This document shows, piece by piece, positions 23,551-54,862 of a DNA stretch of 64,000 nucleotides. The DNA is taken from the NCBI RefSeq assembly GCF_001458175.1, contig NZ_CYPW01000027.1, positions 128,390-192,389 on the forward strand. Reading direction: 5' to 3'. A program made the translations under genes and the position numbers. The notes under the pieces are model-generated. The model was not told the DNA's origin, did no database searches, and worked only from the letters and a program-made list of their open reading frames with translations. This stretch comes from Shimia marina (GTDB lineage: Bacteria; Pseudomonadota; Alphaproteobacteria; Rhodobacterales; Rhodobacteraceae). How positions within the stretch are numbered: position 1 is the first letter of the stretch; every line of letters starts with the position of its first letter.

Positions 23551-23615
23551 AGGGGCCAGCCCCTCTGTCGCAGCAAGCTGCGCCATTCACCCCGGGATAT
23601 TTAGGATCAAATGAA
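23551..23615 (-). repeat. Full copy A of the 3'-end two-hairpin repeat
   Basis: Read on the minus strand, it begins TTCATTTGATC 12 bases after the alpha/beta hydrolase stop. It continues with AAATATCCCGGGGTGAAT, a hairpin GCGCAGCTTGCTGCG, and a hairpin AGAGGGGCTGGCCCCT. Copy B at 54802 has the same segments in the same order. Confidence 0.85.
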
Positions 23616-23626
23616 GCGGGCAGCGC

Positions 23627-24565
23627 TTATGTGTGAGAGGCAAAGAACTCTGCGGCAGCATCAAAAACATGACGTCTTGTCTGGGGCACTTCCATCATTA
23701 CTTCGTGCTCCCCTTTTGCGATCACGTCGAGCGTGCCGTTGGGCCAGCGCGCCATTCGGTCATGAATGTCCTGCGTGTCGACAATAGCTTCATCGGTGCC
23801 CAAGAAGGTCAGGCAGGGTGTGCCTGGAGAAGTCTGTGTGCGCAGGTCTAGGCATTCCTGGAGGGCAGCATTGAGCCAACGCAGGCTGGGGCCAGCGAGG
23901 CTGAGCGCTGGATAGCTGCGCATCTGACGCTGCATATAGGCATACATGTCGGCATCTTTGGTGAGGTCATTGTCCTGAAAGCTCTGATCCAGAACATAGG
24001 TGGTCGCGCTGGTGCCAGGGGCCAGCTGTGTGCCAAATCCAAAGGGCGTAGCAAGCGTGCTGAGCGCCCAGGCGGCGGGCCTTAGAAACGGGGATATGCG
24101 GATGCCCCACATCGGTGCGCTGAAGGCCGCAGCGGCCACAGGCAAATCTTGCAGAAGCGATCGCAGACCGATGCAGCCTCCCATGGAATGTCCCAGAAGA
24201 TAGAACGGTTGGGGCAGGTCCAGATCCCGTAGAGCGGTCATAACAGCGGCAACGTCACGCTGGTAATCGGCGAAATCGACCACATATCCTGCGTAGTCAG
24301 GCTTGACCAATCGATCCGCAAGCCCTTGGCCGCGCCAATCAATGGCCACCATGGCAAAACCGCGCGCCGCAAAATCTTGCGCCGCACGGCCATATTTTTC
24401 GATGTATTCCGTTCGGCCCGGAAAGAGCAAGACGGTGCCTTTCGCCGCCTCTTGCGGCCAAAAAGCAAAGCGCAGGCGCACCCCGTCATCTGCGGTTACC
24501 CAATATGCAGAGGCCTCAGGGCCCTCGGCAACGTCGTGATGATACGGTGCGCTCTGCAGGGGCAT
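23627..24565 (-). CDS. Alpha/beta hydrolase (monoacylglycerol lipase / lysophospholipase-like)
   Basis: This 312-residue serine hydrolase has the nucleophile elbow GHSMGG and a late Asp (GTDEAIVD) and His (KGEHEVMME) completing the triad. The LLFPGRTEYIEKYGRAAQDFAARG opening is typical of PldB-like lysophospholipases. Its start overlaps the stop of the SCP2 gene (TGATG), so the two are translationally coupled and may act in one lipid-handling step. That functional link is inferred. Confidence 0.88.
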   Translation of the reverse strand: MPLQSAPYHHDVAEGPEASAYWVTADDGVRLRFAFWPQEAAKGTVLLFPGRTEYIEKYGRAAQDFAARGFAMVAIDWRGQGLADRLVKPDYAGYVVDFADYQRDVAAVMTALRDLDLPQPFYLLGHSMGGCIGLRSLLQDLPVAAAAFSAPMWGIRISPFLRPAAWALSTLATPFGFGTQLAPGTSATTYVLDQSFQDNDLTKDADMYAYMQRQMRSYPALSLAGPSLRWLNAALQECLDLRTQTSPGTPCLTFLGTDEAIVDTQDIHDRMARWPNGTLDVIAKGEHEVMMEVPQTRRHVFDAAAEFFASHT

Positions 24566-24855
24566 CAGGACAGAACGCCGCCCAGTTTCATGGCTGCGCC
24601 CATGTCACCATCAATGGTCAGCTTGCCGGACATGAAAGCCGCAGTTGGGTTCAGTTCCCCTTCGAGAATCGCCTGGAAGGTTTCCACATCGGCGGTCATG
24701 GTCACATCGGCTTCGTCGTCGCTTGCACGCACGCCGTCGCTGTCAATGACAATCGCACCTTCACCTTCGATGGCAAACTTTGCAGAGCCGTCAAAACCTG
24801 CACCACCCAGTTTTTCAGTCAGGGCAGCCACAGCACCAGTTACGATATCGCTCAT
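24565..24855 (-). CDS. SCP2 sterol-binding domain protein
   Basis: This 96-residue protein is a single SCP2 domain, a small lipid-binding fold, with FAIEGEGAIVIDSDGV, ADVTMTADVETFQAILEGELNP and KLTIDGDMGAAMKLGGVL. It probably binds a lipid or acyl compound in the cytoplasm. It leads a two-gene unit with the alpha/beta hydrolase and is divergent from the TPR gene. Confidence 0.88.
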   Translation of the reverse strand: MSDIVTGAVAALTEKLGGAGFDGSAKFAIEGEGAIVIDSDGVRASDDEADVTMTADVETFQAILEGELNPTAAFMSGKLTIDGDMGAAMKLGGVLS

Positions 24856-24913
24856 ATACTTGATCCTTCACTTTGTTGTGCGCATCTTGGGTTTGTTACG
24901 CGCAAGGTCTACA

Positions 24914-25552
24914 ATGATTTACGTTATGGTCAACTTAAAGCAGCTTCTCAAACTTACCGTTGCGGCATCTGTTGTGACAACGGGTGTTTTTCTCCCTTTT
25001 GGGGGCTTCGGCAATGCCTTTGCACAAGAGGCAGTTGTCACGGAGCCTGAACACGATTCGAAGGGATCGGGCAAACAGCAAGAGGTGCAGGATATGCTGA
25101 GATCTCTGTCCTCAGTTGGGCCTGATCAGGCCGGGCATGTCGCCCAACGGATCCGGCATGTCTGGGACGCCTCCGGCTCTGCAACAGCGGATTACCTATT
25201 GCGTCGCACGCGCAAGGCTTTTGAAGCGGGTGATCTTGAGGCTGCGCTGGAACATGCAACTGCGCTGGTGGATCACGCGCCGGACTTTTCACAGGGGTGG
25301 GCGGAACGGGCGCGTATTTACTACATGTCGGATCTCTACGGACCTGCGCTGGGCGATTTGGAGCAGGTGCTCAGCCTCAACCCACAGCATTTTGACGCGA
25401 TTATGGGTTTGGCCATTTTACTGGAAGAAATCGGGAAGGCCAAAGATGCCTATGAAGCCTATCTACAGGTCAAGGCTATACATCCTCATCAGGCAGGCCT
25501 AACAGAAGCCCTGCAACGACTCGAGCCACAGGCGCGTGGTCAGGAGCTCTGA
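24914..25552 (+). CDS. TPR-repeat protein, exported or membrane-anchored
   Basis: This 212-residue protein starts with a signal or anchor segment (LLKLTVAASVVTTGVFLPFGGFGNAFA). Two to three tetratricopeptide repeats cover about residues 95-200 (LLRRTRKAFEAGDLEAALEHA, ARIYYMSDLYGPALGDLEQVL, GLAILLEEIGKAKDAYEAYL). TPRs mediate protein contacts. AAGG six bases upstream supports the ATG at 24914; an internal ATG at 24926 is possible. It ends 30 bases before the helicase gene and may be co-transcribed. Confidence 0.75.
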   Translation: MIYVMVNLKQLLKLTVAASVVTTGVFLPFGGFGNAFAQEAVVTEPEHDSKGSGKQQEVQDMLRSLSSVGPDQAGHVAQRIRHVWDASGSATADYLLRRTRKAFEAGDLEAALEHATALVDHAPDFSQGWAERARIYYMSDLYGPALGDLEQVLSLNPQHFDAIMGLAILLEEIGKAKDAYEAYLQVKAIHPHQAGLTEALQRLEPQARGQEL

Positions 25553-25582
25553 AGAACGGATAGAACGGACGCAGGCGATCAC

Positions 25583-28444
25583 ATGAGCCAGGAACGGCGG
25601 ATCACGGCGGTGTTGGGGCCCACCAACACGGGCAAGACCCATTACGCAATCGAGCGCATGCTGGGCTATCGCACGGGTGTTATTGGCCTGCCTTTGCGGC
25701 TTCTGGCACGGGAGGTCTATGACCGTATCGTGGCGGCGCGGGGCCCCTCTGTTGTGGCGCTGGTCACGGGTGAAGAGCGCATTGTGCCCCCACGTGCCCA
25801 ATACTGGGTGGCCACGGTGGAAGCCATGCCCGAGGCGCTGGGTGCAGATTTTGTTGCGATTGATGAGATACAGCTCTGTGCTGATCCAGAGCGCGGTCAC
25901 GTGTTTACAGACAGGCTGCTGCGCGCCCGAGGTACGCATGAAACGCTCTTTCTTGGCAGCGATACCATGCGTTCCACCATCGCAGAGCTGGTGCCGGAGG
26001 CGCAGTTCCTGCGCCGGGAACGCATGTCCACGCTCAGCTATTCCGGCAGCCGCAAGATCAGCCGGATGCAGCCGCGCAGCGCCATTGTCGGCTTTTCGGT
26101 TGATAACGTCTATGCCATCGCCGAATTGATCCGCCGCCAGAAAGGTGGCGCGGCTGTGGTGATGGGCGCGCTGAGCCCGCGTACGCGCAACGCACAGGTG
26201 GCGCTCTATCAGAATGGCGATGTTGATTATCTGGTGGCCACAGATGCGATTGGCATGGGGCTGAACCTTGATATTGATCACGTTGCCTTTGCCTCCACCA
26301 CCAAATTTGACGGCCGCCGCATGCGTCCGCTTGCGCCCAATGAACTCGCGCAGATTGCAGGTCGCGCCGGGCGGGGCATGAGCCATGGCACCTTTGGTGT
26401 CACAGGAGAGGCACCGCCGCTTGATGATGGCGTGGCGGAAGCCATTATGGAGCATCGGTTCACACCTGTGCGCAAGCTCAACTGGCGCAACCCTGCTTTG
26501 CAATTTGGCACGGTTGAGGCGTTGATCCGTTCATTGGAGATGGGCTCTGATGACGAGCTCCTGATCAAGGCGCGTGAAGCGGATGACCTGCTGGCGCTGA
26601 AAACACTGGCCGCTGATGCCGAAGCACGCGCGCGCGCCAGCGATGGGGCCTCTGTGCGCCTGCTGTGGGATGTTTGCCGTATTCCCGATTTTCGGGGTAT
26701 CAGCCACGCGGAACATGCGCAGATGATTGGTCAGATATTTGGCTATCTGCATCAGAGTGGCAAAGTGCCCGATGACTGGCTGGCGCGGCAGGTCAAACGT
26801 CTTGATCGCACAGAAGGGGACATTGACACATTGTCGAAACGTCTGGCCTTTATCCGGACGTGGACTTATGTCGCACAGCGTAAATCCTGGGTCAGTGACG
26901 AAAACCATTGGCGTGAAGAGACGCGCGCGGTAGAAGATCGCCTGTCGGATGCGTTACACGAGCGTCTGACACAAAGATTTGTGGATCGGCGCACGTCAGT
27001 GTTGTTGCGCCGGCTCAAGCAGAAGGAGGCCCTTTTGGCCGAAGTGAATGATAAAGGTGAGGTGACCGTCGAAGGAGAATTCGTCGGTCGTCTTGAAGGG
27101 TTCCGTTTCATCGCGGACAAAGAAGCCAGTGGACAGGAAGCCAAGACGTTGAAGTCGGCAAGCCTGCAAGCGCTCGCGCCGCAGTTCCATCTGCGCGCAG
27201 ACCGTTTCTACAACGCGCCGGATACGGAAATCGACTTCACCGAACAGGGTGGCCTCATGTGGGGCGAGCACGCCGTCGGTAAAATGGTGCCGGGGGATGA
27301 TCCGCTCAAGCCAGGCATTTCCGTTTTTGTCGATGACGAAGCCGGGGCCGATGTAGCTCAGAAGGTGCAGCGCCGTTTGCAGCACTTCGTGGATCGCAAA
27401 ATTGCAGCCCTGTTTGAGCCTCTGCTGAACCTGAGCCGTGATGAAGAGCTGAGCGGTCTGGCCCGTGGCTTTGCCTTCCGTATGGTGGAAGGTCTTGGCA
27501 TCATCCCACGTGGTGAAGTGGCCGCCGAAGTCAAAGATCTCGATCAAGACGCCCGCGGCGCTCTGCGCAAGCATGGCATTCGCTTTGGTCAGTTCACCAT
27601 CTTTATGCCGCTGTTGCTGAAACCCGCGCCAACCCGTTTGCGTCTGGTGCTCTGGTCGCTGGCGCAAGGGCTGCAGGAATTCCCCGAGGCGCCACCCCCG
27701 GGGCTGGTGACGGTGCCCTCCGGTACCAGCTTGCCGCGTGGCTATCATGCGATGGCAGGCTACCGGGCCGCAGGCGAACGTGCCATCCGTATCGACATGC
27801 TGGAGCGTCTGGCGGATATGCTGCGCGCCGAAGACAGCCGGGGTGGTTTTGAAGCCAAGGCGGATATGCTCTCGATCACCGGCATGACGCTGGAGCAGTT
27901 TGCCGATCTGATGCAGGGTTTGGGCTATGCCGCCGAAAAAGGCGAACGTGCCAAAGTGAAAGCCGTGGCCGAAGAAGCCTCAGCCGCAGAAGCAGAAGCC
28001 GCTGAGGCACCTGTAGAGGCTGATGCGGCCGCAGGTGAGACAGCTGCCGAAGCGGAGGCTGCTGAAGTGGCAGAGGTGCCAGCAGCAGAAGCTGAGATCG
28101 CAGTGGAAGTGCCTGCTGCTGATGCAGGTGACGCAGAGGTGTCTGAAGAGACGCCAGCAGAACCCGAGGTCGAGGTCTACTACACTTTCAAATGGGCCGG
28201 TCGTCAGGGTGGCAACCGCAATGCACAGCGTCGAGGTGGCAACCAGAGTGCTCCGGCGGGGCGTCGCAACGATACCAAGGGCGGTGACAAGCCGCGCGGC
28301 AAGGGCGGTAAACCCAAGGGCAAAGGCCCACGCCGTGACAATGGTCCAAAACAATTCCAAGCGCGTCCTCCCAAAAAGGAAAAAGCGATCGACCCGGATA
28401 ACCCCTTTGCCGCAGCGCTTATGGGGCTGAAAGGCAAGGACTAA
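25583..28444 (+). CDS. Suv3-like DExH-box RNA helicase with long tail
   Basis: This 953-residue protein has Walker A GPTNTGKTH (12-20), the DEIQ Walker B variant (94-97), SDTM, and motif VI QIAGRAGRG, as in Suv3/mitochondrial degradosome helicases. The mid part has predicted all-alpha segments. From about residue 795 it has an Ala/Glu-rich acidic stretch and then a Gly/Arg/Lys-rich basic tail (NRNAQRRGGNQ, KPRGKGGKPKGKGPRR). Such tails usually bind RNA. It is the first of a closely spaced run with the S4 gene four bases downstream. A role in RNA decay or ribosome work is inferred. Confidence 0.88.
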   Translation: MSQERRITAVLGPTNTGKTHYAIERMLGYRTGVIGLPLRLLAREVYDRIVAARGPSVVALVTGEERIVPPRAQYWVATVEAMPEALGADFVAIDEIQLCADPERGHVFTDRLLRARGTHETLFLGSDTMRSTIAELVPEAQFLRRERMSTLSYSGSRKISRMQPRSAIVGFSVDNVYAIAELIRRQKGGAAVVMGALSPRTRNAQVALYQNGDVDYLVATDAIGMGLNLDIDHVAFASTTKFDGRRMRPLAPNELAQIAGRAGRGMSHGTFGVTGEAPPLDDGVAEAIMEHRFTPVRKLNWRNPALQFGTVEALIRSLEMGSDDELLIKAREADDLLALKTLAADAEARARASDGASVRLLWDVCRIPDFRGISHAEHAQMIGQIFGYLHQSGKVPDDWLARQVKRLDRTEGDIDTLSKRLAFIRTWTYVAQRKSWVSDENHWREETRAVEDRLSDALHERLTQRFVDRRTSVLLRRLKQKEALLAEVNDKGEVTVEGEFVGRLEGFRFIADKEASGQEAKTLKSASLQALAPQFHLRADRFYNAPDTEIDFTEQGGLMWGEHAVGKMVPGDDPLKPGISVFVDDEAGADVAQKVQRRLQHFVDRKIAALFEPLLNLSRDEELSGLARGFAFRMVEGLGIIPRGEVAAEVKDLDQDARGALRKHGIRFGQFTIFMPLLLKPAPTRLRLVLWSLAQGLQEFPEAPPPGLVTVPSGTSLPRGYHAMAGYRAAGERAIRIDMLERLADMLRAEDSRGGFEAKADMLSITGMTLEQFADLMQGLGYAAEKGERAKVKAVAEEASAAEAEAAEAPVEADAAAGETAAEAEAAEVAEVPAAEAEIAVEVPAADAGDAEVSEETPAEPEVEVYYTFKWAGRQGGNRNAQRRGGNQSAPAGRRNDTKGGDKPRGKGGKPKGKGPRRDNGPKQFQARPPKKEKAIDPDNPFAAALMGLKGKD

Positions 28445-28448
28445 CTGC

Positions 28449-28841
28449 GTGGCGACGCAGCTACATCAAGCGTCAGCCCTCAAATTGCGGGCTGACAAAT
28501 GGCTCTGGCAGGCGCGGTTTTTCAAAACTCGCAGCCTGTCGGCCAAAGTCATCACCGGCGGGCACCTGCGTGTGAATGGCACCAAAGTGGCAAAAGCCAG
28601 TTACGGTGTAACCTCAGGCGACGTGCTGACCTTTCCTCAGGCAAAAAAAATCCGAGTCGTCAAAGTGCTTGCGCTGGGAGAACGCCGCGGGCCTGCACCG
28701 GAAGCCCAAAAATTATACGAAGATTTAACCCCTGAGGAGAAACCTGTTCCAAAAGCGCCCGGCGCGGACGGAAAAGGGCGTCCAACTAAGCGAGATCGTC
28801 GCAATCTCGATCTTATGAAAGCTTCCCGGGTTGAAGATTGA
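28449..28841 (+). CDS. S4-domain RNA-binding protein (Hsp15/HslR-like)
   Basis: This 130-residue protein has an S4 domain at about 12-60 (LRADKWLWQARFFKTRSLSAKVI, HLRVNGTKVAKASYGV) and a basic C-terminus. HslR-type proteins bind ribosomal large subunits carrying stalled nascent chains. The start is GTG, with AAGGA eight bases upstream at the end of the helicase gene. Coupling to the helicase suggests a shared rRNA or ribosome-rescue job, which is inference. Confidence 0.85.
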   Translation: MATQLHQASALKLRADKWLWQARFFKTRSLSAKVITGGHLRVNGTKVAKASYGVTSGDVLTFPQAKKIRVVKVLALGERRGPAPEAQKLYEDLTPEEKPVPKAPGADGKGRPTKRDRRNLDLMKASRVED

Positions 28842-28894
28842 CAGAGATTTATTTAATCAATCGAATGATCTGACCACAAGTGAGCTGACCCACA

Positions 28895-29233: not shown

Positions 29234-29255
29234 ACTGCATCGTAGAAACGATTCG

Positions 29256-29285
29256 ATTTTTGCCACGCGGATATGTGGCGAAAAT
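29256..29285. other. Stem-loop 3' of fdxA
   Basis: ATTTTTGCCAC pairs with GTGGCGAAAAT (one T:G) around GCGGATAT. No T-run follows, so an mRNA-stabilising hairpin is possible. Confidence 0.4.
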
Positions 29286-29407
29286 CCTGAAGAAACGCGG
29301 TCTAAAGAATTGGAATGTAAGCCAATTTTTCCTTTGTAAGCCAGCGGTGCTTTCAAGGGGGCGTTTTTTATGTTATAGTTTTGTCATAGAGGACATAACT
29401 GCCTGAG

Positions 29408-45596: not shown

Positions 45597-45680
45597 TGGT
45601 GGGCGACCTAGGAATCGAACCTAGCGTGCGTCTCCGCGAGGGAGTTACAGTCCCCTGCCACACCTTGCGGCCTGTCGCCC
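45597..45680 (-). tRNA. tRNA-Tyr (anticodon GTA)
   Basis: On the minus strand the acceptor GGGCGAC pairs with GTCGCCC, the anticodon loop is CTGTAAC, and a long class II variable arm (CGCGGAGACGC area) precedes the T arm CTAGG-TTCGATT-CCTAG. CCA is encoded. Length is 84 bases. Confidence 0.95.
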
Positions 45681-45818
45681 ACTTTCCAGAGCAGCATCTG
45701 CTCTCGGTGTGAGGGGGTGATTACTGTGCCACGTGAGGGGCGTCAACCAGAAAAGTGGTTGCGCGAGGCGCTTCTTTTGCCCATTGGTGAAACCTCTTTA
45801 TTTTGAAGGTGCAGAGCG

Positions 45819-46610
45819 ATGAAAAAACCCAAATGGGTCGTGGAAAAAGAACAGGCCAAGCGCAAAGACGCGGCTGAAACCGTTTGGTTGTTCGGTTTGC
45901 ATGCGGTGCGAGACGCCCTGTCGAATCCCGCGCGGGAAAAATTGCGCCTGATCGTGACGAAAAACGCCTCCGACAAATTGTCAGAGGCCATTGCCGCCTC
46001 CGGCATCACGCCGGAAATTGTCGATCCGCGAAAGTTCAAAGCGCCGATTGATCCGCAATCGGTGCATCAGGGGGCCGCGCTTGAGGTCAAACCGCTCAAC
46101 TGGGGGCGTCTGGCGGATGTAGCCATTGCCTCGGATGACCGTCCCCAGCGTCTCATCCTGCTGGATCGGGTCACCGACCCGCATAATGTAGGCGCGATTC
46201 TGCGCTCCGCCGAGGTGTTTGGTGCGCTGGCGGTGATTGGCACGCGCCACCATTCTGCACCTGAAACTGGCGCGCTGGCCAAAACCGCCAGCGGCGCGCT
46301 GGAGCGTCAGCCTTACCTGCGCGAACGCAATCTCGCAGATACGATCACCGCACTGCAAAACATGGGTTATCTCGTGCTGGGCATGGATGGCGAAGCCGAG
46401 CATAGCATAGAACAGGCGCTCTGTGACAAGCGGGACATGCCCATTGCGCTTGTTCTGGGTGCCGAAGGGCCGGGGTTGCGCCAAAAAACCAAAGAAACGG
46501 TGGACGCTCTGGTCAAAATTAACTTTGCTGGCGCTTTTGGCTCTCTCAATGTCTCCAACGCTGCGGCAGTGGCGCTTTACGCCTCCTTGCCACAAAGCAC
46601 CGAGGCATAA
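45819..46610 (+). CDS. rlmB: 23S rRNA (guanosine-2251-2'-O)-methyltransferase
   Basis: This 263-residue SpoU/TrmH-family enzyme has an N-terminal substrate-binding domain (VWLFGLHAVRDAL) and the trefoil-knot SAM domain with motifs DPHNVGAILRSAEVFG, LVLGAEGPGLR and LNVSNAAAVALY. It methylates the ribose of G2251 in the peptidyl-transferase P loop. Other SpoU enzymes look alike, but the N-terminal domain favours RlmB. Confidence 0.92.
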   Translation: MKKPKWVVEKEQAKRKDAAETVWLFGLHAVRDALSNPAREKLRLIVTKNASDKLSEAIAASGITPEIVDPRKFKAPIDPQSVHQGAALEVKPLNWGRLADVAIASDDRPQRLILLDRVTDPHNVGAILRSAEVFGALAVIGTRHHSAPETGALAKTASGALERQPYLRERNLADTITALQNMGYLVLGMDGEAEHSIEQALCDKRDMPIALVLGAEGPGLRQKTKETVDALVKINFAGAFGSLNVSNAAAVALYASLPQSTEA

Positions 46611-46644
46611 ACCGGGGCATAAGAGCAAGGCTGCGCGCTTTCTC

Positions 46645-46661
46645 TTGATCAAAATATCCCC
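46645..46661 (+). repeat. Fragment of the 3'-end repeat
   Basis: TTGATCAAAATATCCCC, 34 bases after the rlmB stop, matches the 5' part of the repeat copies at 23551 and 54802. A different G+C-rich sequence follows. Confidence 0.4.
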
Positions 46662-46748
46662 GCCGGAGGCTCCCAAACCTGCGGCGCAGCGCCTAAGTAA
46701 AGGCAGTGTCGCAAGGCGGAGGGCAGGGCCATCGCAAAACGCTCGAAA

Positions 46749-47075
46749 ATGCAGGCAACCAAGATTGCCACCTGTTGCTACTGTGGCACCCGGGCGGCTT
46801 TGATTCTGCGGGGAGAGTCCCGCCATGAGCTGTCCTGTGCCAATTGCGGCGCGCCCCTGCACAATTTGAAGCATTTCCCCCGCGCGCCTGATCAGGCGGA
46901 GATGTTGCCTAAGAAACAGGGGCGCAAGCCAAAGGGTAAAACGATCCAGTCTGCCAAGACTGATTGGGAGAATGCTTCCCGCAAGCGTCCCAAAGACAAT
47001 CGGAAAAAACGCAAGGCGCGCTTCTCCGATTGGGTTGAGGATGTGTTTGATGTGATCGAAGATATCTTCGATTGA
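46749..47075 (+). CDS. Small zinc-ribbon protein, conserved, unknown function
   Basis: This 108-residue protein has a zinc ribbon CCYCGTR...CANCG (Cys at about 9, 10, 12 and 30, 33 in the first 36 residues), a strongly basic middle (KKQGRKPKGK, KRPKDNRKKRKA) and an acidic-aromatic end (DWVEDVFDVIEDIFD). Similar short proteins occur in other Rhodobacteraceae. Nucleic-acid binding is plausible from composition. It may be co-transcribed with rlmB, 138 bases upstream. Confidence 0.7.
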   Translation: MQATKIATCCYCGTRAALILRGESRHELSCANCGAPLHNLKHFPRAPDQAEMLPKKQGRKPKGKTIQSAKTDWENASRKRPKDNRKKRKARFSDWVEDVFDVIEDIFD

Positions 47076-47099
47076 GCGGAAATCTGCCCAGCTTGTTAA

Positions 47100-47250
47100 C
47101 CTTCTGTTCACAGGAATCTTACAGGCTCTGGATATCCAATTCTGCGAACCTAAGTAGTGATGCAAGAGACACGGCAAACGGAACTTCCGTGTTTCCCTTC
47201 ACTGTCCCTCGTTCCGAACCTGCGCCCAAGTTTTCTTGGGCGCTTTTTTT
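47100..47250 (+). ncRNA. Possible small RNA or structured 3' UTR
   Basis: The stretch between a protein gene and a very strong terminator holds an ACGGAA-C-TTCCGT palindrome and no open frame of note. A weak promoter (TTGTTA at about 47095 and AATCTT 16 bases on) could start a transcript of about 130 bases. It could equally be the 3' UTR of the 46749 gene. Confidence 0.3.
47222..47250 (+). terminator. Strong Rho-independent terminator
   Basis: GCGCCCAAG pairs perfectly with CTTGGGCGC around TTTT, followed by seven Ts. Confidence 0.93.
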
Positions 47251-47346
47251 GCAAGTATACTTTGCCTGTAGACGCGGATCCCCAATGGCCATAGCGCCGC
47301 CGTAAACAGCGCTTGCAACAGCGCTCACAGCCGCTAGCCTGACCGC

Positions 47347-47817
47347 ATGAACTACTCTGATGACCATTTGCGCAAGATCCTGCAGCGGACCAAAACCGTG
47401 GCTGTTGTGGGTGTCTCGATGAACACTGTGCGCCCAAGCTACTATGTGGCGCGCTATCTGGCTCTGAAGGGCTATCGGGTCATACCCGTCAATCCGGGCC
47501 ATGCGGGCAAATCGCTCTTTGGGGAAACTGTTGTGGCCCATTTGTCAGATATCACGGACCCGGTTGATATGGTGGACATCTTTCGCCGCTCTGAAGCGGT
47601 ACCCCCGATCGTGGAGGAGGCGCTGGAGCGCTTTGATGATCTGCAAACCATCTGGATGCAGATCGGCGTTGAGCATTCTGAGGCCGCATCGCTGGCAGAG
47701 GCACGGGGTGTGGATGTCATTCAGAACCGCTGTCCGAAGATTGAATATCAACGACTCTTTGGGGAGTTGCGCATGGGGGGCTTCGCCACGGGCGTCATTT
47801 CTTCCAAGCGCAGCTGA
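47347..47817 (+). CDS. CoA-binding domain protein (YccU family)
   Basis: This 156-residue Rossmann-type CoA-binding domain has VAVVGVSMNTVRPSYYVARYL, GYRVIPVNPG and IQNRCPKIEYQRL. Family members bind CoA or acyl-CoA, function unknown. It converges on the histidine kinase gene with 22 bases between and lies after a strong terminator. Confidence 0.88.
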   Translation: MNYSDDHLRKILQRTKTVAVVGVSMNTVRPSYYVARYLALKGYRVIPVNPGHAGKSLFGETVVAHLSDITDPVDMVDIFRRSEAVPPIVEEALERFDDLQTIWMQIGVEHSEAASLAEARGVDVIQNRCPKIEYQRLFGELRMGGFATGVISSKRS

Positions 47818-47839
47818 CACCGCTCTGCTGAGGCGCAGA

Positions 47840-49591
47840 TCACAGCCCGTGCGATCCGCGTTCCCCGATCAGAGAGGCCACAACCTTCGCCAGCTCATCT
47901 TTGCGGAATGGTTTGCCAAGACAGGCATTCATTCCAGCCTCAAGATAGGATTGTGTCTGCTGGGGCAGGATATTGGCCGACAGGGCCACAATCGGCGTGT
48001 TCTGATTGCGGCCCGGGGACTGGCGCAGCATTTCTGTCGCCCGGACACCGTCCAGATCAGGCAGATGGATATCCATCAGGATCAGGTCGTATTGATGGGT
48101 GGTACAGCGTTGCAGGGCAGGGCGTCCATCTTCCACCAGATCGACGCGCACCTCCATACTTTCGAGAAAGCGGCGCACAATCATCTGATTTGTGCGATTG
48201 TCTTCGACCACCAGAACCTTTTTTCCCGGAAATTTGTTTTGCACCGCTGGTGTCTCGGTTGGAGGCGCAGGCCTGCATTCAGAAGCCGCACAGGCCTCCA
48301 GCGGAAAGGTAAACCAAAACGTGCTGCCCGCAAGCGGGCGGCTGTCCACTCCGATTTCACCACCCATCAACTCCGCCAACTCCTTACTGATCGCCAGTCC
48401 AAGCCCCGTGCCACCATAGTGACGGCTGGTGCTGCTGCTGGCTTGTTCGAATTTCTTGAAAATTCGGGTCTGCGCCTCTTCGGTGAGGCCGATGCCTCTG
48501 TCGCTCACAGAGACTTTCACAAACGCCCCGGAGAGTTCCATGCGGCACTGCACGGGGGTGTTTCGGGAAAACTTGATCGCATTGCTCAGAAAGTTGGTGA
48601 TGATCTGATTGAGCCGCACTGGATCGGCCCTCAGCCAGAGGGGTAAAGTGGGATCGATGTGGGTGATGAGATCTACATCTTTGGCTTGTGCTGCCGGTCT
48701 TTGCGAATGTAGAGCGCTTTCCAAAATTGAGGCGGTGGCCACAGGAAGGATCTCCACGGTCACGCCATGCGCCGCAATTTTAGAATAGTCGAGCACGCCA
48801 TTGATCAACCGCATCAAGCCGCGCCCGGACTCGCGGCCGGTGGCGACAAGCTCTTTCTGATCCGGCGTAAGATCCGTTTCATCCAAAAGCTGAAGAACGC
48901 CGCTCAACCCATTGAGAGGCGTGCGAATCTCATGGCTCATTTTAGCAAGAAACTCAGATTTTTCTTGATCCGCTCGCTGTGCATTGTCTCGCAAGTCAAT
49001 CAGCCTCTTCTCTTTGCGCTCCAGCTCAAGCTTGAACATGGTCAGGCCACTCATGACCGCCAGCACCGTGGCGCTCAGGACAAAGGCTGCGCTCATATTG
49101 ATTGATGGTAAGCTCAGGGCCAGAAGAATCAGGTTGATCACCACCAAAGCCGTGACCAGCCAGGCTATACGCAATCCGGTCAATAGCGCCGCGACCATCG
49201 GTGGTCCAAGCAGGAACACCTCCTGCCGCCAGTTGTTGTCTGCCTCATGTATGACAATCACATTGGCGTAAAACAGCAGGAGCAGGCTCATCAAAACCGC
49301 AGCCCATCGGGGCTTCAATCCCACCCTGCAAAGCGCAGGAATAAACAGGCAAAGCATCGCGCTGATACCGGCGCTGAGCGCAAAAGCTGCGCCGGGTTTG
49401 GGGTGCATGAGAACGAGATAGAGAAAGTGCGTCGCGGCAAAGATCGTGATCAGCGCCGAAAACCCGCAAAGCAGCTGTTTGCGAGAGCCCTCAAAATATT
49501 CATCCTCAGGAGGACGTGGCCAAAAGTACCCCAAAAAGGCGGATTTGCCCCGCTGCCAAAACCCGTTTTGCATCAGTCCACATGCGTTCAA
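47840..49591 (-). CDS. Hybrid sensor histidine kinase / response regulator
   Basis: This 583-residue protein has about six membrane helices at 40-180 and a short linker. HisKA follows with phospho-His220 (SHEIRTPLNG), then HATPase with N337 and the DRGIG and GGTGLGLA boxes. A receiver domain carries acidic pair 463-464, phospho-Asp507 and Lys560. The input is the membrane region with no periplasmic sensor domain of note. The first codon is TTG with AGAGG eight bases upstream; an ATG at 49573 is the alternative. No response regulator gene is adjacent. Confidence 0.9.
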   Translation of the reverse strand: MNACGLMQNGFWQRGKSAFLGYFWPRPPEDEYFEGSRKQLLCGFSALITIFAATHFLYLVLMHPKPGAAFALSAGISAMLCLFIPALCRVGLKPRWAAVLMSLLLLFYANVIVIHEADNNWRQEVFLLGPPMVAALLTGLRIAWLVTALVVINLILLALSLPSINMSAAFVLSATVLAVMSGLTMFKLELERKEKRLIDLRDNAQRADQEKSEFLAKMSHEIRTPLNGLSGVLQLLDETDLTPDQKELVATGRESGRGLMRLINGVLDYSKIAAHGVTVEILPVATASILESALHSQRPAAQAKDVDLITHIDPTLPLWLRADPVRLNQIITNFLSNAIKFSRNTPVQCRMELSGAFVKVSVSDRGIGLTEEAQTRIFKKFEQASSSTSRHYGGTGLGLAISKELAELMGGEIGVDSRPLAGSTFWFTFPLEACAASECRPAPPTETPAVQNKFPGKKVLVVEDNRTNQMIVRRFLESMEVRVDLVEDGRPALQRCTTHQYDLILMDIHLPDLDGVRATEMLRQSPGRNQNTPIVALSANILPQQTQSYLEAGMNACLGKPFRKDELAKVVASLIGERGSHGL

Positions 49592-49664
49592 TCCCAGTAC
49601 CTCTCAGTGCTGGAATATGGTTAACAAAGCCTGAAAGGGTCGCCGCCTTAGGCTTAAAACCGCC

Positions 49665-50210
49665 TTACTGCCTTGCCTTTTTCAGGGCAAACACCTGCGC
49701 GCGCTCCTCCCAGTTGTAGCGGCTGTCCTCCACCACTTCACTCCAGTAGAGTCGTCCGCCATAGCGCCATGGATCAAGCACAATGCCCTCTGCCATGCTG
49801 TCACCTTTTGCACTGATCACGACGGTGCTGTGTTCGATGCGAATATTGTCATGGTTGGCGATCGCACGATGCAGTGTCAGCGTTTTCAAATCTTCCTGCC
49901 ACAGCCGGGCCTCCAGATCATCCGCCCATTGCCAGCATAGCCCGCGCGGGCGCAGGCCTTGATTGACCTTCGCGTTGTGCAGCAATGGCCCATCGGTCAC
50001 GTTGTATTCCTCGCGCAACTGCAGAGAATAGCTGTAAGAAATCTGCGCGACGCGTGCGGCCTCTTCGGGGTCAACCGCAGGATCCAGCGCCACAATTGCC
50101 TGCGCAAGCCCGACTTGGTCTGGCAAAAGCGCTTCATCAGGCACCGCGACGCATCCGGCCAGAAAAACTGCCGCAAGAACGCAGAGCAACCTATTCAAAA
50201 TACGCATCAT
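49665..50210 (-). CDS. Putative lipoprotein, unknown function
   Basis: This 181-residue protein has a lipoprotein signal with lipobox LAGC (LLCVLAAVFLAGCVAVPDE). The mature part shows ISYSYSLQLREEYNVTDGPLLHNAKVN and LCWQWADDLEARL, and GIVLDPWRYGGRLYW near the end. I do not recognise a named family. It follows hisE on the same strand with 66 bases between. The start is one of two adjacent ATGs, at 50210 or 50207. Confidence 0.75.
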   Translation of the reverse strand: MMRILNRLLCVLAAVFLAGCVAVPDEALLPDQVGLAQAIVALDPAVDPEEAARVAQISYSYSLQLREEYNVTDGPLLHNAKVNQGLRPRGLCWQWADDLEARLWQEDLKTLTLHRAIANHDNIRIEHSTVVISAKGDSMAEGIVLDPWRYGGRLYWSEVVEDSRYNWEERAQVFALKKARQ

Positions 50211-50276
50211 TTCAGCCCAATCAAATCGCACGTAGTGCCACTATAGGGGTGTCATGCCTTACGGCAAAGTCAGGTT

Positions 50277-50594
50277 TCAGGCCTTTGACCTTGCGGCTTT
50301 TTCCGCGATCCCGCTTATGCCCTGCCGCCGTGCAAGTTCCGTCAGCACATCGTCCAGCGCCACATTTCGCGCTTCCAGCATCACCAGCAGATGAAAAAGC
50401 ACATCCGCCGCTTCATAGGTCAGCTTTTCGCGATCCCCTTTTACGGCTTCAATCACCGCTTCAATGGCCTCTTCGCCAAATTTCTCGGCGCATTTCTCCG
50501 GACCTTTGGCCAAAAGCTTGGCGGTCCAGCTGCTCTCAGGGTCTGCTTTGGCGCGCTCCGCAATCGTGGCGGCCAGATTGTTTAAAACACTCAT
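50277..50594 (-). CDS. hisE: Phosphoribosyl-ATP diphosphatase
   Basis: This 105-residue MazG-fold enzyme hydrolyses PR-ATP to PR-AMP in histidine synthesis. The metal-binding motif is [14 protein letters not shown], followed by [17 protein letters not shown]. The start overlaps the hisF stop by four bases (ATGA), so it is translationally coupled. HisI is not seen in the window. Confidence 0.95.
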
Positions 50595-51388
50595 GTCAGC
50601 CTCATCGGGATACCGGCGTCATGCATATATTGTTTGGCTTCCTGCACGGTGTATTCGCCAAAGTGGAAGATCGATGCCGCCAGAACCGCGCTTGCGCCGC
50701 CTTTGGTGACACCTTCCACAAGGTGGTCCAGATTGCCCACGCCGCCCGACGCAATCACCGGCACATTCACCGCATCGCTGATCGCTTTGGTCAGAGGCAG
50801 GTTGAAGCCCGCCTTTGTGCCGTCGCGGTCCATGGAGGTCAGCAGGATTTCACCCGCGCCCTTGGCCACCACCAGCTTGGCAAATTCCACCGCATCAATC
50901 GGATTTCCGTCCTGATCCAGCGCCGCCTTGCGGCCCCCATGGGTGAAAATCCCCCATTGGTTGGGCACGCCGTTTTCATCATGGCCGATGGTCTTGGCAT
51001 CAATCGCGCAGACAATACACTGGCTGCCAAATTGCGCTGCCGCTTCGGCAATCACATCCGGATTGGCCACCGCTGCGGAGTTGAAGCTCACCTTGTCAGC
51101 TCCTGCCAGCAACAGCCGGCGTACATCCGCCACGCTGCGCACGCCCCCGCCCACGGTCAGCGGCACAAAGCACTGCTCGGCACAGCGCTGCACCATGTCG
51201 ATCATCACACCCCGGTTGTCATGGGTGGCATGAATGTCCAGAAAGCAGATTTCGTCCGCCCCCGCCGCGTCATAAGCGCGGGCGGCCTCCACCGGATCAC
51301 CGGCATCGCGCAGGCCAACAAAATTCACACCTTTGACCACACGGCCATCGGCAACATCCAGACAGGGAATGATGCGGGTTTTAAGCAT
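50591..51388 (-). CDS. hisF: Imidazole glycerol phosphate synthase, cyclase subunit
   Basis: This 265-residue (beta/alpha)8 barrel pairs with HisH. It cleaves and cyclises PRFAR to imidazole glycerol phosphate and AICAR. Conserved ends are [18 protein letters not shown] with catalytic Asp and [13 protein letters not shown] with the second catalytic Asp. A slightly long insert near [15 protein letters not shown] is present in many proteobacteria. Confidence 0.96.
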
Positions 51389-51533
51389 AGGTCACCTCTT
51401 TGCGTCTTCTTAACCGCTTGGCATGAGGACGCCAAGAGCGGGGTTTTCCCACCTATCGAGAAAACGTGATTGGAATGTGACCCCCGTCTGGCGTGACACA
51501 TATGTCGTAAACGTTATCTGGAAGGTCATGATT

Positions 51534-51977
51534 ATGAAAAACTATCTCATCGCAGGAGCCATTGCCATGTCGACAACACTCCCCGCTCAGGCAGAGCTTC
51601 TGTCCGTGCCGTCCAACAAACCCGTGGCCCAGACCATGGATGCGCTTCAGGCCGCCGTGGAAACCGCCGGTGCCAAGGTCTTTGCGCGTGTCGATCATGC
51701 CGGTGGCGCAGCCAATGTGGGCGCAGAGCTGGCCGATGCGGAGCTGCTGATCTTTGGCAATCCCAAGATTGGCACCCCCGCCATGCAGGCGGATATCAAG
51801 GCGGGTCTGTTTCTGCCCCTTAAAGTGCTGGCCTACGAGGATGCGAGCGGGGCGGTCTTCCTGACTTATGAAGACCCGGCACAGATGTTTGCGGAGCTGG
51901 ACATTGCCGAAGATGCCGATTTTGTCGCCACCATGCGCGGCGCTTTGTCCAAGCTGACAGCGGCAGCGGCGCAATAA
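51534..51977 (+). CDS. DUF302 domain protein, secreted
   Basis: This 147-residue protein has a signal peptide (MKNYLIAGAIAMSTTLPAQA) and a DUF302 domain (VAQTMDALQAAVETAGAKVFARVDHA, LLIFGNPKIGTPAM, LAYEDASGAVFLTYEDP). The family is uncharacterised and probably periplasmic. GGAAGG eight bases upstream sets the ATG at 51534. It lies on the plus strand between hisF and hisA and has its own terminator. Confidence 0.85.
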   Translation: MKNYLIAGAIAMSTTLPAQAELLSVPSNKPVAQTMDALQAAVETAGAKVFARVDHAGGAANVGAELADAELLIFGNPKIGTPAMQADIKAGLFLPLKVLAYEDASGAVFLTYEDPAQMFAELDIAEDADFVATMRGALSKLTAAAAQ

Positions 51978-51991
51978 AAACGCCCATAAAC

Positions 51992-52024
51992 AAAAGGCTC
52001 TGAAGCGATGCTCCAGAGCCTTTT
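51992..52024. terminator. Bidirectional terminator
   Basis: AAAAGGCTCTG pairs perfectly with CAGAGCCTTTT around 11 bases. It lies between the DUF302 gene and the end of hisA. Confidence 0.88.
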
Positions 52025-52046
52025 GCATGTTTGCAGATCGGTTGGC

Positions 52047-52769
52047 TTACGCTTTGAGCAGCGCAAGCGCCTCGGCCAGATCAATCGCCCCGTCATAAAG
52101 TGCGCGGCCCGAAATGGCGCCGTTTAACGTAGCACCACAGTCTTTGAGCGCCTGAAGATCGTCCAGAGAGCTCACCCCACCAGAGGCAATCACCGGGATA
52201 GACACCGCCTGCGCAAGCGCCGCAGTGGCTTCCACATTGGGGCCTTTCATCGCCCCATCCCGCGTAATGTCGGTGTAGATGATCGCAGCGACCCCGGCGT
52301 CCTCAAAGGATTTCGCCAGATCGGTGACCATCACATCGGTCTCTTCCGCCCAGCCTTTGGTCGCCACCTTGCCATTGCGGGCATCAATACCAACAGCCAC
52401 TTTGCCGGGGAATTCTTTCGCCGCTTCCCGCACTAGATCGGGGTTTTCAACCGCCACGGTGCCAAGGATCACCCGACTCAGACCTTTGTCGATCCAGCGC
52501 GCGATGGTGGCCATGTCGCGGATGCCGCCGCCCAGCTGCGCGGGCACATTGGTCTGTTTCAGGATTTCTTCCACCGGCGCGGCATTCACCGGCTCCCCGG
52601 CAAAGGCGCCATTGAGATCCACAAGATGCAGCCACTCACAGCCCGCGTTGACAAACTCCATCGCTTGCGCAGCCGGGTTTTCGTTGAACACGGTCTCTTT
52701 GTCCATTTCACCATGCAGCAGGCGCACGGCATTGCCGTCTTTCAGGTCAATTGCGGGATAGAGGATCAT
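52047..52769 (-). CDS. hisA: ProFAR isomerase (HisA)
   Basis: This 240-residue (beta/alpha)8 barrel isomerises ProFAR to PRFAR. Catalytic-face motifs are [19 protein letters not shown] and [14 protein letters not shown], with [10 protein letters not shown] and [13 protein letters not shown] as phosphate sites. It is the substrate supplier for HisF-HisH. Confidence 0.96.
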
Positions 52770-52975
52770 GGGGCAGGGGCCTTATCATAAGTTTGGTGCC
52801 TGTTCCCTATGTGCAGGCACAGACAGGAAATCTCCGCAGTGGTTTTGCATGGTGTCGCAGAAATTGCAACGCAACCGGCCTCGCAAGGCTTGAGAAACGA
52901 GATGACCCTAAGTCACGGTTGATGGGAATCACGCTCTGGCCCAAAGTTTTGGGCAATTGTTCAAGGGAGGACCTT

Positions 52976-53368
52976 ATGAAAAAGACACTTTTGGCCGCAG
53001 CCATGACGCTCGCAGCTGCCACAACCGCTCTGGCAGATCCGGTAGAAGGCATCTGGAAAACCGCCGCAAACGACGAAGGCAGCTATCTTCATGTGAAAGT
53101 CGCCGCCTGCGGCAGTGATATCTGCGGCACCATTCACAAGGCCTTCGATGCCAGCGGTTCTGCCAATCCATCTTATGAAAATCTGGGCAAAAAGATGATC
53201 TGGGACATGGGTGTTGATGGCGGTGGTGCCTACTCCGGCGGCAAGATCTGGGCCCCGGATGCGGACAAGACCTACAAGTCTAAAATGAGCCTGAGTGGCA
53301 ACACGCTGAAGGTGAAAGGCTGCGTCTCCGTGGTCTGCCGCAGTCAGAACTGGACACGCGTGAACTAA
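52976..53368 (+). CDS. DUF2147 domain protein, secreted
   Basis: This 130-residue protein has a signal peptide (MKKTLLAAAMTLAAATTALA) and a DUF2147 domain (VEGIWKTAANDEGSYLHVKV, CGSDICGTIH, IWAPDADKTYKSKMSLSGNTLKV, split by a conserved Cys pair). Family members are small periplasmic proteins of unknown role. AGGGAGGA before the ATG at 52976 sets the start. Confidence 0.88.
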   Translation: MKKTLLAAAMTLAAATTALADPVEGIWKTAANDEGSYLHVKVAACGSDICGTIHKAFDASGSANPSYENLGKKMIWDMGVDGGGAYSGGKIWAPDADKTYKSKMSLSGNTLKVKGCVSVVCRSQNWTRVN

Positions 53369-53390
53369 TCTCTCAGGCACCGAGACATGC

Positions 53391-53420
53391 AAAAGGCGCA
53401 GGAGATCCCCTGCGCCTTTT
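53391..53420. terminator. Bidirectional terminator
   Basis: AAAAGGCGCAGG pairs perfectly with CCTGCGCCTTTT around six bases. It serves the DUF2147 gene and the peroxiredoxin-like gene. Confidence 0.92.
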
Positions 53421-53442
53421 GTGTTTTAACGATGGGCTGTGT

Positions 53443-53979
53443 TTACACGGCGCCCGTGTATTCGCCGCGTGCCGGGTAGTTGTTCTTGATGGCAAAATCC
53501 AGCGCCCCGAGCAGCTCGGAGAAATGCGGACGCACAAAAGGCATGGTCTGCACAGAGCCATAATAGAGCGACTGATCCGGGCTCACCATGAACAGACCGG
53601 GCTCAGAGAAGAGCGCAGGCTCTTCGATGCCAATGGAGGTCTTGCCGCGCGAGGTGGAGATATAAAGCCCCCATTCCTTGGCCACGGTCAGCGGCAGATC
53701 ATACGCAATGCGCAGCCCTGTGGCTTCGATCTTCTCGGCCATGTCTTTGGCGCGCGCCTCGCCATCGCTGCTGACCGCAACGCAGGTCACGCCACGTTCG
53801 GCAAAGGCTTCCACCAGTTTCTCAAGTTCTTTGAGGTAAGTGGCGCAGATCGGGCAGTGCAGACCGCGGTAAAAACACACCACCGTGCCGCGCTCAGAGC
53901 CTTCGCTGGCAAGATCAAACGTGCCACCGCCCACAAGCGGCAGGGTGAGGTTCGGGGTCTTCTGACGTGGCAACAGCAT
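53443..53979 (-). CDS. Peroxiredoxin-like (AhpC/TSA fold) protein
   Basis: This 178-residue thioredoxin-fold protein has VVCFYRGLHCPICATYLKEL, a CxxC active site in the place of a peroxidatic cysteine, and GVTCVAVSSDGEARAKDMA. Family members reduce peroxides or act as thiol reductases. It is divergent from an AraC regulator with an inverted repeat between the genes, so regulated expression is likely. AAGGA before the ATG supports the start. Confidence 0.88.
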   Translation of the reverse strand: MLLPRQKTPNLTLPLVGGGTFDLASEGSERGTVVCFYRGLHCPICATYLKELEKLVEAFAERGVTCVAVSSDGEARAKDMAEKIEATGLRIAYDLPLTVAKEWGLYISTSRGKTSIGIEEPALFSEPGLFMVSPDQSLYYGSVQTMPFVRPHFSELLGALDFAIKNNYPARGEYTGAV

Positions 53980-54017
53980 GGAAGTATCCTTTTGTTTGTG
54001 CTTTCTGGACTTATCGC

Positions 54018-54041
54018 CGGATTTAATGTCAAATAAATCCG
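54018..54041. promoter_or_regulatory. Inverted repeat between peroxiredoxin and AraC genes
   Basis: CGGATTTA and TAAATCCG form perfect 8-base arms around eight bases. A third CGGATTT half-site is at 54061. It is a likely AraC operator. Confidence 0.55.
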
Positions 54042-54073
54042 ATTGATCGTGCTAAAACACCGGATTTGTGCTA

Positions 54074-54799
54074 ATGGATCGCCTCACCACGCTGGTTGAG
54101 AAATTTCACCTGACCGTGCAGCCCGCCCCGCTGAGCACGGCCAACCTGATTGCCATGGCGGGGGAGGATGGCACGCCTGCGCGCGTGGTTTTCCTGACAC
54201 GGGGCACCTCTCAGACCGCGCGCGCGGAGGAAGTCCTTTTTGCAGCCCATGTGGATTGGATGGGCATGACCAACCCATTGATGGCCTCTTTGCCCGATGA
54301 GGTTGGTTCTGATTTGAGCGGTGCCGAGGACAGTCGCGCGCTGGTGCGGCTGATGGCGGAGGAAACCACCGCCAACCGCTGTGGCGCGCAATCTGTAATC
54401 AATCGTCTGGGTGAAGCGCTGATGGTGCGCTTGCTGCGAGAGCAGATTTCTCAAGGCACCACAGATGTCGGCCTGCTGGCGGGGCTGGCAGATCCCCGGA
54501 TCAGCCGCGCGATTGTTGCAATGCATGATTTTCCTGGGCGGGTCTGGAGCAACGCGGATCTCGCGCAGGAGGCGGGGCTGTCTTTGTCGCGCTTTGCGGA
54601 ACTTTTTGCCCAAACCGTGGGTGAAACGCCGATGGGTTACCTGCGGCGTTGGCGGCTCATTCTGGCCCATCAGGACATCATGCGTGGGGATCGCGTGGAT
54701 GCTGTCGCACGCCGCTATGCTTACAACAGTCCGGAAAGCTTCACCCGCGCCTTTCGCAAGGCCCATGGCGTTGCCCCCACAGCCCTGCGCGCAGCCTAG
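54074..54799 (+). CDS. AraC family transcriptional regulator (Cupin_6 type)
   Basis: This 241-residue protein has an N-terminal effector part of the Cupin_6 type (TANLIAMAGEDGTPARVVF) and a C-terminal double helix-turn-helix (WSNADLAQEAGLSLSRFAELF, RVDAVARRYAYNSPESFTRAFRKAHG). The start is the ATG at 54074; a GTG at 54068 is possible. It is probably an activator or repressor of the divergent peroxiredoxin gene. Confidence 0.88.
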   Translation: MDRLTTLVEKFHLTVQPAPLSTANLIAMAGEDGTPARVVFLTRGTSQTARAEEVLFAAHVDWMGMTNPLMASLPDEVGSDLSGAEDSRALVRLMAEETTANRCGAQSVINRLGEALMVRLLREQISQGTTDVGLLAGLADPRISRAIVAMHDFPGRVWSNADLAQEAGLSLSRFAELFAQTVGETPMGYLRRWRLILAHQDIMRGDRVDAVARRYAYNSPESFTRAFRKAHGVAPTALRAA

Positions 54800-54801
54800 C
54801 C

Positions 54802-54862
54802 TTCATTTGACTAGAAATATCCCGGGGTGAATTGCGCGTCCGCGCAAGAGGGGCTGGCCCCT
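54802..54862 (+). repeat. Full copy B of the 3'-end two-hairpin repeat
   Basis: It begins TTCATTTGACTAG two bases after the AraC stop, then AAATATCCCGGGGTGAAT, a short hairpin GCGCGTCCGCGC, and AGAGGGGCTGGCCCCT. It matches copy A at most positions outside the first hairpin's loop. Confidence 0.85.

Follow-up and report, generated by a model that had tools for sequence, protein, structure and literature searches.

This paper describes a dispersed repeat encountered in a 64-kb stretch of the Shimia marina genome (the window; contig C27, positions 128390-192389), which recurs throughout the same 4.0-Mb draft genome of 45 contigs (G000; the own genome) and in related genomes. We regard it as a mosaic, non-coding repeat of the Rhodobacteraceae that resembles repetitive extragenic palindromes (REPs), lies beside stop codons and carries a head word read by a putative factor, a reading to which we assign a probability of about one half. 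An earlier note on the window was made from one genome, so that two features central to this reading were not visible there: that head words differ from genome to genome, and that heads and tails are exchanged separately.

Head words, tails and their exchange

The family consists of two modules, a head and a tail. The head opens with a word approximately 10 nt long, followed by two to three free bases and AAATA(TCC/CTC/CCC), with AAATATCC or AAATACTC as the core in own copies; the tail is either YGGGG with two hairpins, one hairpin or tandem hairpins, or the mini-hairpin GCCG(G/A)AGGC. Three head classes were distinguished in the own genome, A (CTTCATTTGRC), B (CTTCCTCTTGA) and C (CTTCTTCTGRC, with AAATACTC), of which A and B each occurred across six tail types and C across two. 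Tails of tandem hairpin units (GTATGGGGGCTGGCCCCCATTT... or similar), with two to three units in the stretch displayed, were seen at C1:158549 (L113), C11:49815 (L116) and C1:59605 (L055). Elements were also found as head-to-head pairs approximately 10-120 bp apart, reminiscent of REP dimers, both at L105, L114 and L064/L065 and in genome G313 (C12:95245/95283, C18:58561/58606 and C21:30009/30052).

A covariance model (R1), built from 17 own copies including both full window copies, gave 71 matches at E<=1 in the own genome, and the pattern CTTC-NTYT-N6-AAATATCC with up to two mismatches occurred at 79 genome places, versus 5 for its reversal. Own copies are counted below as 67 curated heads within genome stretches fetched around earlier matches, rather than as an exhaustive genome count; five of 72 matches to a head regular expression (C4:107120, C24:147702, C24:230442, C27:143689 and C32:18492) had been removed beforehand as in-gene or tail-less. 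The many genome-wide copies required by the reading in the earlier note are thereby confirmed. For G291 (62 heads) and G299 (39 heads) a looser regular expression was used without curation, and at least one G299 row is spurious (L278, + 1724), while the G311 heads represent 24 of 57 matches. The head-listing pattern applied across genomes misses some copies, because it accepts any base except A at the position 15 nt ahead of the core. Word statistics are 8-mer counts over 366 heads from nine genomes; for G290, G298, G310, G304, G292, G303, G294 and G295 heads were counted and words not listed.

Each of the nine genomes used one to three head words, mostly private or common to one relative. The 67 own heads carried CTTCATTT (31), TCCTCTTG (20), CTTCTTCT (10) or no assigned word (6), and the class A word CTTCATTT was absent from all 299 heads elsewhere; exact matches to TTCATTTGRCY were likewise confined to own-genome loci among 396 loci. 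The 62 heads of G291 were dominated by TTCTCATT (32; also in G299, 13), TCCTCTTG (19) and CTTCATTC (6), the 39 of G299 by TCCTCTTG (19) and TCTCATTC (13), the 29 of G301 by CCTTTCGC (17) and CTCAATGT (6), the 24 of G311 by TTTCTTTT (13), CTTTTGCC (7) and TCTCAATG (3), and the 34 of G321 by TTCTTCGT (23) and TTCATTGT (5). A single word prevailed in G313 (TCTTCTGT, 73/78 heads), in G316 (CTTCTGTT, 18/19) and in G312 (ACTTCTTG, 13/14, absent from the heads of the other eight genomes). Within a set of 69 G313 copies, ten positions reached 2.0 bits, eight of them fixed by the word used for selection, and the last two free positions held 0.11 and 0.36 bits; across seven such sets, the eight word letters stood at 2.0 bits by selection, most neighbouring word positions were at or near 2.0, and the last two free positions ranged from 0.05 to 0.92. 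Invariant words beside free bases suggest that the word is read by something, and different words at shared sites suggest that the reader differs between species.

Flank matching yielded orthologous element pairs between the own genome and G291 (25), the own genome and G299 (13), and G291 and G299 (22); the G291 and G299 stretches were taken around model matches only, with some omitted and element-free sites unsampled, so that these numbers carry no denominator for loss. Many sites are old, as an element is also present at the orthologous positions of related species. Orientation was kept in 21, 11 and 22 of the pairs matched on both flanks and was opposite in 3, 2 and 3, respectively; six of the eight opposite pairs lie at loci with a head-to-head pair in one or both genomes, and the spurious L278 row accounts for a seventh, leaving L324/L290 as the only one without such a cause. 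Common descent is clearly visible in the tails at orthologous sites, which score 14.7 versus 7.1 for shuffled partners in the own-G291 comparison and 21.7 versus 8.7 in the own-G299 comparison (0/2000 shuffles each). The corresponding word scores were 4.22 versus 3.78 (84/2000 shuffles) and 4.37 versus 3.70 (3/2000 shuffles), and within one genome the word of the fifth-best other copy scored 9.2-10.5 of 11. At C6:360419, C6:371408 and C27:48674 the head word has changed over a tail nearly identical to that of the orthologue, and at C24:210644 nothing differs except the free bases and the final letter of the word. Between G291 and G299, which are closer to each other, words (9.1 versus 6.3) and free bases (0.64 versus 0.37) track descent; the head class was kept in 18 of 22 pairs and switched over related tails in four.

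Exchange of parts is also seen within the own genome, where tails approximately 92% or more alike were found in 13 of 2211 locus pairs and head classes differ in nine of these 13. One 45-nt tail occurs both under a class A head at C4:108093 and under a class B head at C24:246759; in G291, the orthologue of the C24:246759 element has a different tail. The elements at C4:24764 and C24:149130 are identical over 57/58 nt, with the mismatch at a free base and with unrelated flanks; their G291 orthologues have different heads and tails, which indicates that at least one of the two was overwritten. At orthologous sites, head and tail have each been replaced without the other, and this exchange points to pieces being copied between dispersed elements. 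Separately, the element at C13:27581 (L051) and its G291 counterpart (L291) are identical including the free bases, with flanks 88% and 94% alike and a G291-style TCCTCTTGC word, possibly because the region around the histidinol dehydrogenase gene was transferred recently.

The claim that the stem is kept while its sequence varies was upheld in the own copies and in relatives. Among the 17 own copies, six of the seven pairs of hairpin 1 changed on both sides (covariation 0.301 versus 0.129 shuffled). In 41 model matches from relatives, an alignment that was fitted to the structure and therefore leans towards it, both sides changed at all seven pairs and 97.7% of the cells pair, with a covariation of 0.400 versus 0.110 shuffled and at most 0.096 in slid controls, and with 74 both-side changes versus 19.5 in shuffles. 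The stem GCGCAG/CTGCG of the window copy between pldB and pepF is GCACAG/CTGTG in G291 and G299, and hairpin 1 of the window element starting at 54801, TTGCGCG-TC-CGCGCAA, is replaced by TTGGCCCAAGGGGCCAA in G299. Single-strand folding energies of the window copies were ordinary (z -0.96, 0.00, -1.41 and +1.19), and the structural claim therefore rests on covariation. A TTCATTT/GGGTGAA pairing seen in one fold was discarded as not general, class B heads being unable to form it.

Gene-end placement, proposed mechanism and competing explanations

The placement beside stop codons, checked genome-wide with gene calls from a home-made open reading frame (ORF) caller, is strong. Gaps between co-directional genes hold 43 of the 67 own copies (20 sense, 23 antisense), convergent gaps 19 and divergent gaps 5; the gaps of at least 30 bp in the window, the sole baseline, comprise 4205, 964 and 2559 bases, respectively, from which about 36, 8 and 22 copies are expected. 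Divergent gaps are avoided and convergent gaps preferred. Heads lie 0-28 nt past a same-strand stop codon in 26 of 39 sense cases, and elements end at most 30 nt from an opposite stop codon in 30 of 42, one value of -11 representing overlap. This agrees with the placement of REPs as extragenic palindromes near gene 3' ends, mainly in co-directional and convergent gaps, and supports the REP-like nature that had been proposed. With regard to a possible replication-type polarity, the strands on arbitrarily oriented contigs were 41/67 minus and 26/67 plus, mixed on most large contigs, with the six copies on C32 all minus. Pfam supports the called strand for 19 of the 20 proteins encoded next to ten of the 23 antisense copies. 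In annotated plasmids, a Paracoccus copy lies antisense between iolC and iolD, a Salipiger copy lies sense between two co-directional genes, and a TM1040 copy is located 5' of a cytochrome gene, no gene of that direction being annotated just before it. An antisense mini-hairpin element between coaBC and dut (L112; C40:222993) abuts the dut start codon with its purine-rich reverse head, GGGGAAG.

In the proposed mechanism, a putative trans-acting factor, perhaps with one paralogue per word class, would recognize the head word at the DNA level, by analogy with the REP-associated tyrosine transposases (RAYTs), which recognize their own REPs. A shift in recogniser specificity, or short-tract copying between dispersed elements, could change the word genome-wide and keep the positions. 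The tail would tolerate or serve the 3' boundary of either neighbouring gene, as an mRNA-end hairpin or a weak two-way terminator, and such a two-way role would account for stop-codon placement in both orientations and for the scarcity in divergent gaps. More tentatively, and with less than even confidence, the repeat may form a recogniser-repeat system independent of RAYTs, in which one to three paralogous putative recognisers per genome each read a word of about 10 nt, words are rewritten in place at dozens of old sites with position, direction and often the tail kept, and the head moves between elements as a 22-nt cassette of its own, apart from the tail. If the proposed reading holds, the repeat would offer a natural record of a recogniser and dozens of dispersed sites shifting specificity together, visible at orthologous sites in related species; it would also show that gene-end repeats of the REP type need no RAYT to be abundant, and it gives a concrete starting point for finding a new factor that binds DNA or RNA in a bacterial family of ecological importance.

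Several observations weigh against this reading. No trans-acting factor was found, neither of the two candidates tested (RAYT and reverse transcriptase) being required. Words are not strictly private: the class B 8-mer TCCTCTTG is common to the own genome, G291 and G299 (followed by A in 19/20 own heads and by C in 18/19 G291 and 19/19 G299 heads), TCTTCTGT is common to G313 (73/78) and G316 (18/19), which belong to different genera (their words diverge at the next base, CTTCTGTT being present in 0/78 versus 18/19 heads), TCTCAATG is common to G301 and G311, and CTTCTTCT to the own genome, G313 and G316. The own words at sites shared with G291 and with G299 score slightly above shuffles. Near-identical whole elements are rare, with six of 2211 own pairs scoring at least 46/58 and one pair 57/58, and movement to new sites is therefore not supported. 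Simple gene conversion of the whole head fits poorly with an invariant word whose neighbouring free bases vary, and selection or site-by-site change may have acted instead of conversion. Finally, G018, of the same genus, has no R1 match at E<=1e-4 and one unconvincing pattern match, and the elements thus seem dispensable.

A RAYT was rejected as the driver, and a reverse transcriptase as a necessary one. RAYTs were unmatched at E<=0.001 in 13 of 19 genomes, including the element-rich G290, G298, G310, G304, G311, G313 and G316. A reverse transcriptase in the genome, as retro-copying would need, was missing from part of the 19 genomes: PF00078 (E<=0.001) was unmatched in ten, among them the element-rich G299, G290, G298, G301, G304, G313 and G316, and the own genome has two matches. 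With drive by an adjacent gene in view, 134 element-neighbouring proteins were compared by self-BLASTP, which returned a few paralogue pairs.

The main rival, which we hold to be rather unlikely, is a host 3'-end element, i.e., an intrinsic or factor-assisted terminator or an mRNA-stabilizing hairpin that is selected per gene end and whose head is read on RNA. The tight placement (26/39 sense heads at most 28 nt from the stop codon), the compensated stems and the sites common to several species fit such an element, as do a mild enrichment of T in the 8 nt past the tail (2.26 versus 1.29 of 8) and the terminator-like hairpin at 54847, which is the T-rich one of the two full window copies (terminator scan of 46000-56000; the 23550 copy was judged by eye). 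It is opposed by the lack of a preferred direction between co-directional genes (20 sense, 23 antisense), which weakens the terminator reading and in which the antisense calls are backed by Pfam and by the annotated Paracoccus plasmid copy. Moreover, 9 of 65 scored tails have five or more T among the 8 nt that follow their final hairpin, so that a GC-rich hairpin with a U tract, as in Rho-independent terminators, is not general across the own tails, and the head words are left unexplained. A directional terminator or mRNA 3'-end element, as entertained in the earlier note, is accordingly disfavoured, the orientation bias relative to genes whose absence had been named beforehand as refuting being absent between co-directional genes; the agreement of copy and gene direction described there holds for both full window copies and does not extend to the genome.

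It is improbable that stem compensation arose without structural selection, through template switching that perfects quasi-palindromes, with the family being neutral debris. The replacement of stems as a whole rather than by drift, the near-identical tails on differing heads and the ordinary folding energies are what this would produce, and it is contradicted by the word, whose positions stay the same in dozens of copies next to free bases, by the AAATA core in all genomes listed and by sites kept beside diverged flanks. Still less probable is a signal for DNA uptake or recombination that has diverged into species dialects, of the type of the Neisseria DNA uptake sequences or the Pasteurellaceae uptake signal sequences, doubling as gene-end hairpins: ten-letter or similar words varying from species to species, both directions at gene ends and occasional head-to-head pairs resemble such signals, and a density of about one copy per 60 kb, which is far below that of uptake sequences, the conserved core and tail, and the one to three words per genome speak against them. 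A GTAG- or CGTC-tagged REP mobilized by RAYT (TnpA-REP) can practically be dismissed, since, for all that the placement matches that given for REPs in the main text of PMC3733652 and the own genome encodes one RAYT (NF047646), that RAYT is flanked, by eye, by a different GTAG repeat and not by the present one, seven element-rich genomes have no RAYT match, and GTAG and CGTC occur in 1/67 and 5/67 own elements.

Copies in the window and distribution across genomes

Both full copies described earlier in the window proved real. The element at 54801-54863 (+) scores 81.0 bits with R1, which was trained on it, and comprises the class A head CTTCATTTGACTAG-AAATATCC (54801-54822, +; word, free bases and AAATATCC core), CGGGGTGAAT, hairpin 1 and hairpin 2 (GAGGGGCTGGCCCCTC); it is flanked by an AraC-type gene (+, ending at 54799) and hisH (-, 54878-55516), and its G299 orthologue (L278) has a different head word and a compensated hairpin 1. 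The element at 23550-23616 (-) scores 78.2 bits, again with a model trained on it, and comprises the class A head CTTCATTTGATCCT-AAATATCC, CGGGGTGAAT, hairpin 1 (GCGCAG/CTGCG) and hairpin 2, between a lysophospholipase-like gene (-, ending at 23627) and an M3 oligoendopeptidase gene (-); its orthologues in G291 and G299 have a different head word and a compensatory stem change. Distances to the stop codons of the same-strand genes, given previously as 2-12 nt, are 1 nt (54801) and 10 nt (23616) by our ORF calls.

The diverged copy reported near 1233-1294 was recovered at 1232-1294 (+; 30.2 bits) as GTTCTTTTGACCTG-AAATACTC with hairpins AGCGCAGCCTGCTGCGCT and GGGGGCAAAGCCCCC, 3' of a tRNA gene (1043-1116). 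Two supposed fragments are indeed parts of the family and were redefined: that at 567-600 is a headless tail at 555-595 (+; 19.1 bits), with hairpin GGAGGGGCTGACCCCTCC directly past a gene ending at 566, and that at 46645-46661 is no broken piece, since it has a head, CTTTCTCTTGATCA-AAATATCC, with the mini-hairpin tail CCGCCGGAGGC (46638-46670, +), 27 nt past an rlmB-like gene. Chance origin of the window copies is excluded: with up to three mismatches, AAATATCCCGGGGTGAA occurs twice in the window versus 0.10 expected (two being reached in 0/100 shuffles), and AGAGGGGCTGGCCCCTCT gives four window rows versus 0.04 expected, two of these rows being both strands of one palindrome. Beyond the elements, TTCATTTGRCY has one additional match in the window, at 63283, inside a called gene.

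In agreement with the earlier note, no named family was found. With Rfam 15, a tRNA is the sole window match at or above its gathering cut-off and the elements match no family, none of the 14 window matches up to E=10 overlapping them; a sub-threshold match to a selenocysteine tRNA (38.1 bits versus a cut-off of 47) lies at 45599-45682 (-). The literature searched, which did not include subscription journals or preprints, contained no description of the repeat, and its exact-string matches were unrelated by title.

At E<=1e-4, R1 detected the repeat in 24 of 25 genomes of the genus, with 16-85 copies each where present, in 8 of 11 other genera of Rhodobacteraceae, and in one of 24 genomes outside the family, with one weak match. 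Partial matches to a 76-base query, 80-90% identical, were found in eight plasmid records, three of them from Thioclava, two from Tritonibacter and one each from Salipiger, Ruegeria and Paracoccus. Inspection by eye of hisH flanks at 35 of 80 loci identified four element-like sequences, two per orientation, in Oceaniglobus, Paracoccus saliphilus, P. ravus and Pararhodobacter, the P. saliphilus copy (L199) falling below the R1 threshold of E 1e-6; with so few flanks element-like, genera differ in whether a particular gene end has the element. In a viral collection, searched for the exact 18-mer AAATATCCCGGGGTGAAT only, one stretch matched, which does not indicate a phage-borne element.

Comparison with known systems

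DNA uptake sequences are words specific to a species, some 10 nt long and frequently located at gene ends, that occur in far higher copy numbers and are not known to have a fixed core plus hairpin tail. The present repeat shares with these dialects its species-differing words of about 10 nt at gene ends, and differs from them in its far fewer copies and in its core and hairpin tail. Rhizobial intergenic mosaic elements (RIME) are palindrome mosaics in alphaproteobacterial intergenic DNA, which the repeat may resemble.

GGAG is a variant REP tag. Counted anywhere in the own elements (head, core and 45 nt; TGTC and CCTC uncounted), GTAG was present in 1/67, CGTC in 5/67 and GGAG in 29/67, and an unpaired GTAG or CGTC tag is not the rule in this repeat. 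The own genome does harbour a second, ordinary REP system, consisting of the RAYT NF047646 (178 bits; L129:1405-1884, G000:C40:295963-296397) and a flanking GTAG-type repeat (GTAGGGTGCGC...).

According to PMC3733652, REPs of the GTAG and CGTC superfamilies bear an unpaired GTAG or CGTC motif at one hairpin end and are located some tens of bp at most from the 3' end of a gene, where neighbouring genes converge or run in the same direction. The repeat resembles REP, BIME and REPIN elements in being a short extragenic palindrome near gene 3' ends in such gaps, with head-to-head pairs, several classes per genome and a conserved unpaired motif at a hairpin end. Unlike these, it does not follow the GTAG/CGTC tag rule and does not need a RAYT, and it has a genome-differing head word of about ten letters, free bases, an AAATA core and separate exchange of head and tail. 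The same paper defines CGTC REPs by stems of 8-9 bp together with a CGTC/TGTC/CCTC motif, a CCA-like tail being present in most, states that those of alphaproteobacteria 'apparently lack a dedicated transposase', and in its main text makes no mention of Rhodobacter, Paracoccus, Roseobacter, Ruegeria, Silicibacter or Dinoroseobacter; the present repeat is likewise an alphaproteobacterial hairpin repeat, in which, unlike in CGTC REPs, CGTC is not the rule (5/67). The closest model for a joint change of word and recogniser is that of the TnpA-REP groups, which, according to PMC8266576, co-evolved with their own REPs.

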